Of a stretch of 64,000 bases of DNA, positions 51,880 to 54,659 are shown piece after piece. This stretch comes from Cellulophaga lytica DSM 7489 (GTDB lineage Bacteria > Bacteroidota > Bacteroidia > Flavobacteriales > Flavobacteriaceae). Numbering within the stretch: the first letter of the stretch is position 1; the number at the start of each line of letters is the position of its first letter. The notes below the pieces were generated by a model. That model saw only the letters and a program-made list of their open reading frames with translations, was not told where the DNA came from and made no database searches. Made by a program: the position numbers and the translations under genes. Location of the stretch: contig NC_015167.1 of NCBI RefSeq assembly GCF_000190595.1, forward strand, positions 3,580,501 to 3,644,500, read 5' to 3'.

Positions 51880-51953
51880 GGCGAGGTAGCTCAGTTGGTT
51901 AGAGCGTCGGATTCATAACCCGGAGGTCACGAGTTCAACTCTCGTTCTCGCTA
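51880..51953 (+). tRNA. tRNA-Met (CAT), elongator type, used as an integration site
   Basis: A full cloverleaf: acceptor GGCGAGG paired to the 3' strand with G-T pairs at both ends, D arm TAGCTCAGTTGGTTAGAGC, anticodon loop TTCATAA (anticodon 51914-51916, CAT) and T loop TTCAACT. The base-paired first nucleotide rules out initiator tRNA. The closing pair of the anticodon stem is A-C by my alignment. The 3' 44 bp (51911-51954) recur exactly at 54184-54227, so this tRNA is the attachment site of the downstream island and its 3' half now comes from the element side. Confidence 0.95.
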
Positions 51954-51954
51954 C
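51911..51954 (+). repeat. attL: 44-bp direct repeat inside tRNA-Met
   Basis: From the anticodon arm through the 3' end of the tRNA plus one base, this segment is identical to 54184-54227. Flanking bases differ on both sides. Tyrosine recombinases typically cross over at an anticodon or T arm and leave such a duplication, with the tRNA kept functional on one side. Confidence 0.92.
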
Positions 51955-51958
51955 TAAA

Positions 51959-51986
51959 CAAAACCCCCTAAATACAGGGGGTTTTG
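51959..51986 (+). terminator. element-borne terminator placed after tRNA-Met
   Basis: A perfect 11-bp stem with a C5/G5 core (51959-51969 with 51976-51986) and 6-nt loop lies 5 bp after the tRNA. It is part of the inserted DNA, so the element restores transcription termination of the tRNA it splits from its native terminator. Confidence 0.88.
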
Positions 51987-52027
51987 CTTTATATGACCTT
52001 TCGGGATAAACTATCAAAAAAGGAAAA

Positions 52028-52051
52028 CAGCACCCAAAAGAGTACCCAAAT
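52028..52051 (+). repeat. left arm-type tandem repeat
   Basis: Two adjacent 12-bp units: CAGCACCCAAAA (52028-52039) and GAGTACCCAAAT (52040-52051). They begin 73 bp inside attL. The same unit occurs twice at the right end in the same orientation. This resembles arm-type integrase-binding sites of tyrosine recombinase attP sites. Confidence 0.75.
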
Positions 52052-52249
52052 TTATATTGTTAAACTATATACAGTTGCAAATATTACATACTATAAAAAC
52101 TACAACTGAATTAATTTTACAATAATTAGAAAAACTTACGGAATCCAGTAATGAACTTAAATAATTTTATTACATATTTGATTTAATTTTTAAAATAAAA
52201 TGTAATTAACTTTACAAATCGATTTTAAATTCACAACTTAATTTAGATA

Positions 52250-53092
52250 ATGTACGTAATTAAGCTTTCAGGCTCTATAAACACAAATAACTACGGAATA
52301 AATAAATTACTTAATTTCTACAATACTGCAAAAAAATACAGTTATACCCATATATCTATAGATTTTTATGATTTAAAATGGATTGACGCTAATTTATGCG
52401 CCGTTTTTCAAGGTATAATATTTAAGCTCAATAAGGAAAGGGGACTAAACTTCTCTACTGATGAAATTTTCTTAAAACAAAAATTTGATATTTTAATTAG
52501 AAATGGTTTTTATTTATTTGATGAAAATGCAAGTGATGCTAGAAGCTCAACAGTAACTTTAAGAAAATTTTATAAAAATGAATCTCATAATTTTTTAGAT
52601 TATTTAGATAATGACCTTTTAAGCCATAGAAGTTTAAAGGAAAATGAAGATTTAAAGGAAAATATACTTGGTAATTTATTAGAAGTTTTTGAAAACTATG
52701 AAATACATTCAAAAACTGAGTATCCAGTTTTTGTCTGCGGACAATATTACCCAACAAAGAAAATTTTAAAATTTACATTAGCCGATATTGGTGTTGGCTT
52801 TTTAGAACCGATAAGTATTAAAAAAAAGGAAATAAAGACCAGTATTGAAGCTATACGTTGGGCTATAATGAATGGAAATTCTACTAAGGATTTAATTCAC
52901 AAAAACACTCCCGGTGGTCTAGGCCTTTTTGACTTACATCAATTTATGATAAAGAACAAAGGAAAACTAGAAATAGTAACAGGTAACGTATATTGGACTT
53001 CAAAACATCAAGAAATGAATTTTAATACATATAAAACATTAAATAATAATTTATTAGGAACTACAATAAATTTGGTTTTTAATTGTTATTAA
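52250..53092 (+). CDS. STAS-like plus GHKL-type ATPase protein of the island
   Basis: 280 residues. Residues ~1-100 resemble a STAS domain: HISIDFYDLKWIDANLCAVFQGII has the pattern of the anti-sigma-antagonist strand-loop-helix. Residues ~130-280 form a GHKL (histidine kinase-like) ATPase: N-box LLEVFENYEIHS (Glu145, Asn149), G1 box ADIGVGF (Asp179, Gly181, Gly183), G2 box NTPGGLGLFDLHQF (Gly222-Gly225), and a closing GTTINLVF strand. There is no HisKA dimerisation domain or phosphoacceptor His, so it is not a normal sensor kinase. It could be a serine kinase or ATP-driven switch as in SpoIIAB/RsbW-type partner switching. It is the first gene of the cassette. Confidence 0.8.
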   Translation: MYVIKLSGSINTNNYGINKLLNFYNTAKKYSYTHISIDFYDLKWIDANLCAVFQGIIFKLNKERGLNFSTDEIFLKQKFDILIRNGFYLFDENASDARSSTVTLRKFYKNESHNFLDYLDNDLLSHRSLKENEDLKENILGNLLEVFENYEIHSKTEYPVFVCGQYYPTKKILKFTLADIGVGFLEPISIKKKEIKTSIEAIRWAIMNGNSTKDLIHKNTPGGLGLFDLHQFMIKNKGKLEIVTGNVYWTSKHQEMNFNTYKTLNNNLLGTTINLVFNCY

Positions 53093-53102
53093 AATAATTT
53101 TG
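53072..53102 (+). promoter_or_regulatory. internal promoter before the DUF4325-PIN pair
   Basis: TTG at 53072-53074 (inside the end of the ATPase gene), 20-nt spacer and TAATTTTG at 53095-53102 fit the consensus. The leader to the ATG at 53148 would be ~40 nt. The last two genes could thus be expressed apart from the ATPase. Confidence 0.65.
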
Positions 53103-53147
53103 CACTATATTTAAACTAAAACACACAACTACCTACATATACCTCAT

Positions 53148-53468
53148 ATGAAAAATATTGATATTTCTTTATTTTTAAATAATAATAATGCAATAAGTCA
53201 TTCTCAAGGAACTACTCTTTACGAAGAAATAAAAGACCTTCCTATTGGTACTTATAAATTATCATTTATCAACATAACAAGAACTACAACTAGTTTCTTG
53301 AATGCCTCTATAGGCAAACTTGCTGTTCTTAATCCTTCTATGATAAATTCTTTTATTTTTGAATCTAATAATCCTAGAATTGAATCTAAAATAAATAGTG
53401 TTTTAAGAAATGCTAAAAACTACCATTCTCATGATGAAAATATTGAGAACGCTCTATTAGCAATTTAA
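53148..53468 (+). CDS. DUF4325 STAS-like protein of the island
   Basis: 106 residues. The core SFINITRTTTSFLNASIGKLAVLNP (~39-63) matches the STAS-like DUF4325 domain, where a conserved T-x-SF-x-(N/D)-A segment forms the loop that in SpoIIAA-type proteins holds the phosphorylated Ser/Thr. Thr47, Thr48 and Ser49 are candidate acceptors. DUF4325 proteins are found beside GHKL ATPases in bacterial accessory regions and are thought to be partner-switch components. It starts 55 bp after the ATPase gene and is 4 bp before the PIN gene, so the two are probably coexpressed. Confidence 0.8.
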   Translation: MKNIDISLFLNNNNAISHSQGTTLYEEIKDLPIGTYKLSFINITRTTTSFLNASIGKLAVLNPSMINSFIFESNNPRIESKINSVLRNAKNYHSHDENIENALLAI

Positions 53469-53472
53469 ATTA

Positions 53473-54069
53473 ATGGCCTATAACATAAGAAACCTCAGAA
53501 ACCACAATGTTGGTGATTATGACTATTTTTTAGATGCTAATATTTGGATTAAAAAATTAAAACCAAAGTTAGGTCATATTAACAAAAAAGATAAAACATA
53601 CTCTGACTTATTTGATAAAATAGTTGAATGTCATAATTCAAAAATATTTATTACTCCTCTGTTAATTTCAGAAATACTAAACGTATGTTTACATATTGAT
53701 TTTCAGAATTTTTTAACTGACATAAAAAAATCGTTCAGCAATAAAAATGAAGAAAAACATTATATGAAATTTAACTATCGTCCTAGCCAAGAATATAGAG
53801 ATTCCTATTTAAATTTACTTGATGATATTAGTGCATTTGAACACAAATTACACTCAGCTGAAGATTCCTTTAATAAGGTAAATTTATCCAATCTCTTAGC
53901 TTTTCCTGAAAAATTAGATTTCAATGACTTTTATTATCAAAATATTTTTAATAATACTAGCATTAAATTTATAACTGATGATGAAGATTTTTGCGTTCAA
54001 AACATAGATGTGTTCTCACTTAACCAAAGATTAATTGATGCTGGAAATAAGTATGTAATAAAAAAATAA
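53473..54069 (+). CDS. PIN-domain nuclease of the island
   Basis: 198 residues with the acidic PIN/PINc arrangement: Asp21 in YDYFLDANIWIKKL, Glu67 in FITPLLISEILNVCL, Asp152 in KLDFNDFYYQNIF and Asp169/Asp170/Asp172 in KFITDDEDFCVQNI. This order (D, E, D, TDDxDF) is that of VapC-like and larger PIN ribonucleases, which use Mg2+ or Mn2+ to cut RNA. Between the Glu and the third Asp lies an ~80-residue helical insert (DIKKSFSNKNEEKHYMKF...), longer than in VapC toxins, that may form a target- or partner-binding lid. It is the likely effector of the cassette. No VapB-type antitoxin is visible. Confidence 0.82.
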   Translation: MAYNIRNLRNHNVGDYDYFLDANIWIKKLKPKLGHINKKDKTYSDLFDKIVECHNSKIFITPLLISEILNVCLHIDFQNFLTDIKKSFSNKNEEKHYMKFNYRPSQEYRDSYLNLLDDISAFEHKLHSAEDSFNKVNLSNLLAFPEKLDFNDFYYQNIFNNTSIKFITDDEDFCVQNIDVFSLNQRLIDAGNKYVIKK

Positions 54070-54080
54070 CTTATAAATAT

Positions 54081-54104
54081 CAGCACCCAAAACAGCACCC
54101 AAAA
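54081..54104 (+). repeat. right arm-type tandem repeat
   Basis: Two identical 12-bp units CAGCACCCAAAA (54081-54092 and 54093-54104), in the same orientation as the left pair, ending 79 bp before attR. In the excised circle the two pairs would flank the 44-bp core at nearly equal distances. Confidence 0.78.
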
Positions 54105-54183
54105 CTATAATTTTTAACAAATTTACATTATTACAACACACTAACTATCAATGAAATACAGAGTAACAAAAATAAAGGGTAAA

Positions 54184-54227
54184 ATTCATAACCCGGAGGT
54201 CACGAGTTCAACTCTCGTTCTCGCTAC
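54184..54227 (+). repeat. attR: 44-bp copy of the tRNA-Met 3' half
   Basis: Identical to 51911-51954. It lacks the acceptor 5' strand, D arm and half of the anticodon stem, so it is not a functional tRNA. It marks where the native tRNA 3' end was before insertion. Confidence 0.92.
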
Positions 54228-54233
54228 AACATT

Positions 54234-54269
54234 AAAAGCGATTTAGTAAAAACTAAATCGCTTTTTTTT
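54234..54269 (+). terminator. native tRNA-Met terminator, displaced by the island
   Basis: A perfect 14-bp stem (54234-54247 with 54252-54265), AAAA loop and T8 tract begin 7 bp after attR. In the uninserted chromosome it would stand right behind tRNA-Met. Confidence 0.9.
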
Positions 54270-54362: not shown

Positions 54363-54659
54363 ATGAGTAAATTTTCAGAAATTATAAACAAAGACATTCC
54401 TGTTTTAGTAGACTTTTATGCAGAATGGTGCGGGCCTTGCAAAACAATGAGTCCTATTTTAAAACAAGTAAAAGACAATTTACAAGACAAGGTTTCTATT
54501 GTTAAAATAGATGTAGATAAAAACCAAAAACTAGCTGCTAAATACCAAGTAAAGGGCGTGCCTACTTTAGTGCTTTTTAAAAACGGCAAACAAGTTTGGA
54601 GACAGTCTGGAGTGTTACAAAAAAACGAATTACTATCTATTATTACACAAGCTAACTAA
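54363..54659 (+). CDS. trxA: thioredoxin
   Basis: 98 residues with the redox motif WCGPC (Cys23, Cys26), the VLVDFYAEWCGPC strand, the buried Asp in DVDKN and the cis-Pro of KGVPTLVLFKNG. It reduces disulfides of cytoplasmic proteins. Its start is 94 bp after the displaced tRNA terminator, and its stop overlaps the ATG of the methyltransferase gene by 1 bp. Confidence 0.95.
   Translation: MSKFSEIINKDIPVLVDFYAEWCGPCKTMSPILKQVKDNLQDKVSIVKIDVDKNQKLAAKYQVKGVPTLVLFKNGKQVWRQSGVLQKNELLSIITQAN

Follow-up and report, generated by a model that had tools for sequence, protein, structure and literature searches.

The 64-kb window analysed here, positions 3580501–3644500 of the single 3,765,936-base contig of Cellulophaga lytica DSM 7489, carries at positions 51955–54227 (numbered, as all positions below, from the first base of the window) a segment of 2.27 kb that is best explained as a non-autonomous, integrase-less islet inserted in the 3' end of a tRNA-Met gene by an arm-binding tyrosine integrase. 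We put the probability of this reading at roughly 0.8. Insertion is indicated by a whole tRNA gene, a repeated 44-bp 3' half, a displaced terminator, an empty site in relatives and arm-like repeats at the two ends. The islet is a derivative of tyrosine-recombinase elements that lacks the integrase and resembles the cis-mobilizable elements (CIMEs), and its three genes match the toxin–antitoxin operon vapKSC.

The tRNA-Met target and its empty counterpart

The features that define the insertion and its chromosomal flank are as follows.

51880–51954, + strand: intact tRNA-Met (CAT), the integration target, identified by ARAGORN
51911–51954, + strand: core of the left attachment site (attL), the 3' 44 nt of tRNA-Met, exact 44-bp repeat
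51959–51986, + strand: element-borne terminator hairpin replacing that of tRNA-Met itself (11-bp stem, 6-nt loop)
54184–54227, + strand: core of the right attachment site (attR), exact 44-bp copy of the tRNA-Met 3' half
54234–54265, + strand: host tRNA-Met terminator displaced by the insertion, directly after the distal core (14-bp stem, 4-nt loop)
54363–54659, + strand: thioredoxin-like gene of the chromosomal flank outside the islet, which adjoins the empty tRNA-Met site in genomes G011 and G015

The original prediction, made from the bases of the window, had described an intact tRNA-Met gene followed after 2273 bp by an exact copy of its 3' half, with a terminator beyond the distal copy that fits the tRNA, and both observations were confirmed. 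The two cores, offset by 2273 bp, are identical in 44 of 44 positions, and a BLAST search of tRNA-Met against the whole 3.77-Mb genome returned just two matches to the full 44-bp core, both at this locus. The hairpin with the 14-bp stem that starts at 54234 is homologous to the one found directly after the tRNA in G005, G011 and G015 (the stem being imperfect in G015), whereas the hairpin at 51959–51986 has its positional equivalent in the integrase-bearing elements of G002 and G031 described below. With a G+C fraction of 0.250, the islet lies below the mean of 0.310 (standard deviation 0.018) of 122 same-size windows taken across the 64 kb, the islet included. A 31-codon open reading frame (ORF; MKYRVTKIKGK..., 54151–54246) starts past the right arm and ahead of the core; it crosses attR into the flank and may be the beginning of a gene that was lost.

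Among the 38 tRNA genes found in the genome, this tRNA-Met alone is followed by a repeat of its 3' part, as judged from an exact 14-nt seed searched for over 17.7–19.8 kb downstream; apart from it, repeats were limited to tandem tRNA copies in two cases and, in one, to a 19-nt match to the 5' part of the tRNA, close to a neighbouring tRNA gene. The tandem copies lend some colour to the idea that the 44-bp repeat is a chance event or a by-product of tRNA duplication, with the three genes as ordinary residents, but the exactness of the repeat, the position of the arms on the inner sides only and the empty sites in relatives leave this explanation practically no room.

The 17 congeneric genomes searched all possess the tRNA-Met gene, its 75-nt sequence being identical in 15 of them and differing by 2 and 4 mismatches in the remaining two. 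In 16 of these congeners tRNA-Met gives a single match (E ≤ 1e-6), hence there is no second core. In the remaining congener, G002, an exact second core lies on a different contig and bounds another, larger island. The sequence following the gene was read in all 17 congeners, over 1.5 kb as regards downstream genes. In G011 and G015, the nearest relatives as judged by a neighbouring START-domain protein that is 99 and 100% identical, the tRNA-Met is joined directly to the homologous hairpin and then to the same thioredoxin gene (90% identity in G011, 88% in G015), so that the empty site expected by the original prediction does exist. The thioredoxin gene was not seen within 1.5 kb of tRNA-Met in the other 15 congeners; G005 has the homologous hairpin there, but not the thioredoxin gene within that distance. 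Several congeners, G010 and G014 among them, show only the absence of a second core, since what follows their tRNA is unlike the sequence in the window. Neither the three genes at this place without a repeat nor a tRNA fragment in a genome devoid of the genes, the two observations named beforehand as speaking against an insertion, was encountered in the relatives. A relative of the first islet gene occurs in one congener, G004, with the other two genes beside it and elsewhere in the genome; the trio is therefore not a resident of the tRNA-Met locus.

Arm-type repeats and the missing integrase

On the inner side of each islet end there is a pair of 9-bp GYACCCAAA repeats with a period of 12 bp.

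52030–52050, + strand: left arm-type paired repeat GCACCCAAAAGAGTACCCAAA, one of two matches in the genome
54083–54103, + strand: right arm-type paired repeat GCACCCAAAACAGCACCCAAA, the other match in the genome, 103 nt before the TCATAACCC of the core

These pairs look like arm-type integrase sites. When up to one mismatch is allowed, the pair occurs twice in the genome, both times at the islet ends, and it is absent from the 17 congeners and from a reversed control. A loose detector of repeat pairs (at most one mismatch, spacing 10–13) fires in 31 of 170 bins, and repeat pairs by themselves thus prove nothing; the GYAC pair is much rarer than such loose pairs, being found in 3 of 207 control bins on the + strand of the window.

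Elements that possess an integrase occupy the same tRNA-Met in two other genomes. In G031 the cores lie 69 kb apart, the arms GTACAGAATAAGTACAGAAT are present at both ends, and an intact integrase of 443 aa with Arm-DNA-bind_5, SAM-like and Phage_integrase domains is encoded at the right end. In the island of G002, arms GGTACAACATAGGTACAACA stand at either end, and a frameshift has disrupted the integrase, which is closest to the 404-aa integrases of two further loci (L149 and L152). Relatives of the G031 integrase at E ≤ 1e-40 were found in 88 of 397 genomes of the family (Flavobacteriaceae). In 25 loci that were read (L124–L148, integrases of about 443 aa), a tRNA fragment matching TCATAACCC[GA][GA]AGGTC precedes the integrase start in 24, at 158–197 nt in 22 of them and at 315 nt in two, and a G(T/C)AC pair lies between the integrase start and the core in 22. 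The islet shares with the G002 and G031 elements and with the group of ~443-aa integrases the same tRNA and an element-borne terminator, and with the former two also the paired arm repeats at both ends and a similar arm-to-arm distance. It differs from them by the absence of an integrase, by its arms, GYACCCAAA instead of GTACAGAAT or GTACAACAT, and by the position of these arms relative to the tRNA.

Counted from right to left in the circular form, with the core taken as 42 bases, the arm-to-arm distance is 220 bp in the islet, compared with 216 and 219 bp in the two elements of G002 and G031, respectively. The distance from the left arm to the tRNA end is 75 nt in the islet as against 49 and 51 nt, and that from the right arm to the core is 103 nt as against 125 and 126 nt. 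The layout of the arms is thus kept but displaced by ~24 bp relative to the tRNA, a shift that leads us to infer that the integrase was a distinct one and its crossover displaced. To judge from these repeats, the islet keeps an attP-like substrate, probably for an integrase other than those known at this tRNA-Met. Arms and cores together would form the recombination substrate, and since both are kept, the islet may still be excised and moved by a suitable integrase, though not by itself.

Two observations concern the elements used for comparison. At the left end of the G002 island (L047, G002:C1:1-6000) there is a CRISPR type II locus with the end of Cas9 including RuvC_III, Cas1, Cas2 and a 343-aa ORF without a match; defence cargo is a recurrent finding at this tRNA-Met. 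Downstream of the G031 element (G031:C1:3461089; L052, L123) the second core is succeeded by one more terminator of the element type and by a further pair of arms, which suggests a tandem arrangement with another element or its remnant; a third core was not found in the ~19 kb searched.

No integration or transfer gene was recognized within the islet, as had been predicted. The three ORFs match no recombinase family in Pfam, PADLOC or PHROGs, and tblastn searches, for which 33 frames had been chosen by motif from 35 integrase and Xer loci, detected no integrase remnant in 51955–54183 (best E 0.078), the same queries recovering the broken integrase of G002 at 5.6e-90.

The search for a helper was extended from the genome itself to the 17 congeners, 396 other genomes of the family, IMG/VR and genome_contigs. 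The original prediction had proposed looking for the same arm repeats beside an integrase at other loci, and an integrase with matching noncoding arms was found in none of these collections, which are incomplete and in two cases were scanned for exact matches only. The genome_contigs scan demanded an exact arm pair together with the T-arm of a tRNA in one orientation, so that a variant helper would escape it. Its sole match lies upstream of a tRNA-Leu in a metagenome-assembled genome of Rhodobacteraceae. The 13 matches in IMG/VR, which were rejected, share a single position close to the beginning of a conserved phage ORF that has about 395 aa where complete. In the family sample, arm matches occur in 11 of the 397 genomes, the own one included. 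Eight of the ten others lie inside ORFs, that of G160 is just upstream of an ORF, and that of G288 is beside a tRNA-Ser, around which no 14-nt repeat was found within 9.7 kb. One of the eight, in G357, falls within the gene of a 301-aa tyrosine recombinase; it is regarded as fortuitous, as it codes for the C-terminal motif of the recombinase, the protein gives no Arm-DNA-bind match and its locus yielded no tRNA.

The genome of C. lytica DSM 7489 itself encodes five tyrosine recombinases, the two longer ones being mobile-looking, and GYACCCAAA arms are not found near any of the five. Both longer ones, of 372 aa and of 438 aa (the latter adjoining a tRNA-Arg), were accordingly discarded as helpers. 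The 372-aa recombinase is encoded just past the window (L016, G000:C1:3644000-3663900), together with several ORFs that by eye resemble genes of integrative elements; the ORF before it is presumably mnmE, and the locus is probably a separate element.

A vapKSC-like operon as the only cargo

The space between the arms is occupied by three genes of one orientation.

52250–53092, + strand: vapK-like gene, STAS plus GHKL-type kinase, 280 aa (motifs in alignment A1, first gene of a conserved trio, phrog_3364)
53148–53468, + strand: vapS-like gene for a STAS antitoxin, 106 aa, DUF4325-like (profile A3 against PDB 9z7o chain A)
53473–54069, + strand: vapC-like gene for a PIN ribonuclease toxin, 198 aa (profile A2 against PDB 9z7o chain C)

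On sequence grounds the three genes match the vapKSC operon of kinase, STAS antitoxin and PIN toxin, published as a toxin–antitoxin system linked to DNA damage and phage defence (EMBO J 2026, PMC13373217, cited here, like the other papers, from the available part of its text); no other publication on vapKSC by name was found. The original prediction had not identified the cargo as vapKSC-like. Profile A3 matches Escherichia VapS (PDB 9z7o chain A) with an E value of 3.2e-10, and profile A2 matches Escherichia VapC (PDB 9z7o chain C) with 8.5e-6 over profile positions 7–192. Thr48 of the vapS-like protein aligns with the phosphosite Ser48 of Escherichia VapS, the position being S or T in all five aligned rows, and Asp21 of the vapC-like protein aligns with the catalytic Asp28 of Escherichia VapC and is invariant in alignment A2 along with E67, D149, D152, D169 and D170. 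In the vapK-like protein, N149, D179, G181 and the GGLGL motif are invariant among the five sequences of alignment A1. The gene order, the STAS protein with a Ser/Thr phosphosite and the PIN protein with a catalytic aspartate are all common to vapKSC and the islet. Much as in vapKSC, the first islet protein is a putative STAS plus GHKL-like kinase, which at 280 aa has no room for an N-terminal helix-turn-helix. The islet differs from published vapKSC in that nothing but this operon is carried, and in that the carrier is a tRNA islet, a setting on which the available text of PMC13373217 is silent.

Against phage Bas42, the Escherichia operon is reported to give a protection of about two logs, which is lost when VapC D28, VapS S48 or the ssDNA-binding aromatic residue F54 of VapK is mutated; VapS neutralises VapC, and the substitution S48E abolishes this neutralisation (PMC13373217). 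In the published model, single-stranded DNA arising from phage infection or DNA damage would activate the kinase VapK, which would phosphorylate the antitoxin VapS; phosphorylated VapS would release the RNase VapC, and cell growth would stop. Direct activation of VapK by single-stranded DNA was inferred in that work and not demonstrated there. If the islet operon acts alike, it would abort infection when single-stranded DNA accumulates, and its toxin, by penalising loss of the islet, may hold an integrase-less element in place.

The first gene is found in 6 of the 397 family genomes, the own one included. The five others contain the trio in the same order in three cases and the first two genes only in two, with 30–43% identity between the islet proteins and the other aligned family copies. 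A profile search across the phylum gave matches in 25 of 335 genomes, again including the own one, and the full trio was present in order, by profile, at 15 of the 26 distinct loci outside the own genome, the first gene being split at one of them; some of the remaining loci have an unscored PIN-like third ORF and the rest lack the third or the second gene. A solitary distant relative of vapK (329 aa, weak HATPase_c_2 match) is encoded elsewhere in the own genome (G000:C1:2482886-2483326, L215), with neither vapS nor vapC beside it.

PADLOC-DB 2023 and NCBIfam 2026 gave a weak DrmA match for the first protein (8.7e-4) and an irrelevant weak one for the second (0.027), and otherwise recognized nothing. 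Ten proteins encoded next to vapKSC-like loci, picked by hand and hence providing no rate, each reach 1e-5 or better against a defence model, namely type I specificity and methylation subunits, type II/IIG methyltransferase, PglX, type III restriction and dCTPase. The trio stands directly after a type I restriction specificity gene in four loci (L203, L204, L205 and L213), and in L203, L204, L208 and L213 it precedes a further gene of a shared type, which we take from its start to be RhuM-like. A functional coupling of the trio with restriction is possible. According to PMC13373217, another immune gene is found no further than 10 kb away at 103 of 289 vapKSC loci; the available parts of two other defence papers (PMC13092281, PMC12137116) contain nothing bearing on the islet cargo.

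The vapK-like protein also matches phrog_3364 (5.2e-30), and two phage records match it at 28–30% identity. Such relatives in phage genomes, the small size, the integration at a tRNA and the anti-phage type of the genes would suit a phage satellite packaged by a helper phage, such as a phage-inducible chromosomal island (PICI), a phage-inducible chromosomal minimalist island (PICMI) or a tycheposon-like element. We consider this highly improbable, because no replication, packaging, capsid, regulatory or helper-hijacking gene was recognized among the three, a 32-bp piece of the core finds no match in IMG/VR and there is no DNA match to the islet in 50,697 phage records; DNA similarity to plasmids was likewise not found.

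Origin of the islet and its place among known elements

Several points weigh against the integrase-less islet with a vapKSC-like cargo as described. The mobilising enzyme is hypothetical as long as the cognate integrase is missing from the collections scanned, and the arm geometry was derived from three elements. The identity of VapK depends on motifs and operon context, since the protein matches nothing in Pfam or NCBIfam and nothing convincingly in the PDB. The matches of the second protein to DUF4325 (0.004) and of the third to PIN (0.046) are below the Pfam cut-offs, and the AlphaFold model of the latter is moderate (pLDDT 64.9).

Integrase-less islands flanked by att sites (CIMEs, PMC5704250) and vapKSC are both already known; what appears new, within these searches, is their combination, a single vapKSC-like operon that makes up the entire cargo of a 2.27-kb islet whose arm sites are intact. 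Like the islet, CIMEs such as those related to ICESt1 in Streptococcus thermophilus retain attL and attR in the absence of integration and transfer genes (PMC5704250). Unlike them, the islet is only 2.27 kb in size, consists of a single operon, has no integrase-bearing element in tandem and possesses arm repeats at both ends, its relatives having the integrase family of this bacterial family. By definition, CIMEs also derive from an ICE or IME through gene loss and are mobilised in cis once an ICE has accreted at attR or attL; the islet shows no remnant of such a loss, and its relatives display possible intermediate stages. Clusters of attC sites lacking integrases (CALINs) and miniature inverted-repeat transposable elements (MITEs), treated in PMC11389934, which reviews helper-dependent elements, also have recombination sites without a recombinase; they use integron attC sites or transposon ends, whereas the islet uses the tRNA att site of a tyrosine integrase, and their dependence on a helper is hypothetical in the case of the islet. 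Elements of arm-binding tyrosine integrases at tRNA genes share with it the core repeat and, conservatively spaced, the arm repeats of the two ends, but have an integrase gene of their own.

Islands without a working integrase gene were seen more than once. In a survey of tRNA cores in 359 family genomes (same-strand core pairs within 20 kb, tandem tRNAs left out), four pairs were picked from among the matches listed, in G084, G193, G112 and G217; the islet of the window is smaller than the integrase-less or decayed islands among these. The islands of G084 and G193 have 403-aa integrases. G217, of another genus, contains a 10.7-kb island at a sister tRNA-Met with an exact 45-bp repeat and GTACC-type repeats towards both ends; the contig of this island has no Phage_integrase match, 13 being found elsewhere in the genome, and the integrase queries detect nothing in the island (tblastn, best E 0.60). 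In G112, a 3.6-kb island at the orthologous tRNA encodes ParDE, a piece of a transposase and a 362-aa recombinase-like protein with Phage_int_SAM_1 below the cut-off (0.0067) and no HxxR box, and no Phage_integrase match was obtained in this island.

The original prediction of a minimal non-autonomous cassette moved in trans thus holds as regards site-specific insertion at tRNA-Met without an own integrase, which the core and the empty sites support. Movement in trans is plausible, but no integrase with matching arms was found in the collections scanned, and loss of the integrase in place gives the same picture. In the latter case, that of a classical CIME, an integrase-bearing insertion would later have lost the integrase and other genes by internal deletion, and the present form would never have moved. 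We regard such decay as having close to an even chance. The possible intermediate stages at the same tRNA in relatives, namely the frameshifted integrase of G002 and the recombinase-like protein of G112, agree with it, as does the description of CIMEs as elements that have lost the genes for integration and transfer and kept attL and attR (PMC5704250), but there is no integrase remnant in the 2.2 kb, both cores are still identical in 44 of 44 positions, and the vapC stop codon is 13 bp from the right arm, where a random deletion would not be expected to end.

Alternatively, a helper integrase specific for GYACCCAAA arms would have excised the integrase-less form itself and, after its transfer, inserted it; this is plausible, although we would not go as far as even odds; in-place loss is about as likely. 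The complete attP-like substrate with an arm-to-arm distance of 220 bp next to 219 and 216 bp, the packing of the cargo between the arms and the second integrase-less island in G217 argue for such movement, and against it are the single known copy of the islet and the lack of a helper with these arms in the collections scanned. The tight packing and the perfect identity of the 44-bp cores slightly favour a unit that moved as it is; the lack of a second copy or a helper leans the other way. That the islet represents an undescribed class of minimal, integrase-free defence cassettes, which would pass from one related bacterium to another as bare attP substrates, with a core and two pairs of arms enclosing a single defence operon, and be served in trans by a helper reading the GYACCCAAA arms shifted by ~24 bp, is a tentative proposal that we think unlikely.

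The GYACCCAAA arms are a concrete key by which to search for the missing integrase, and the combination of a shifted core with a similar arm-to-arm distance offers a testable rule for spotting integrase-less islands in other genomes. The islet is a genomic island of very small size whose recombination sites are complete, a single defence operon being placed between two att sites. It shows how a toxin–antitoxin system linked to phage defence can be seated in a tRNA hotspot without an integrase of its own, and the toxin may account for the retention of the islet.

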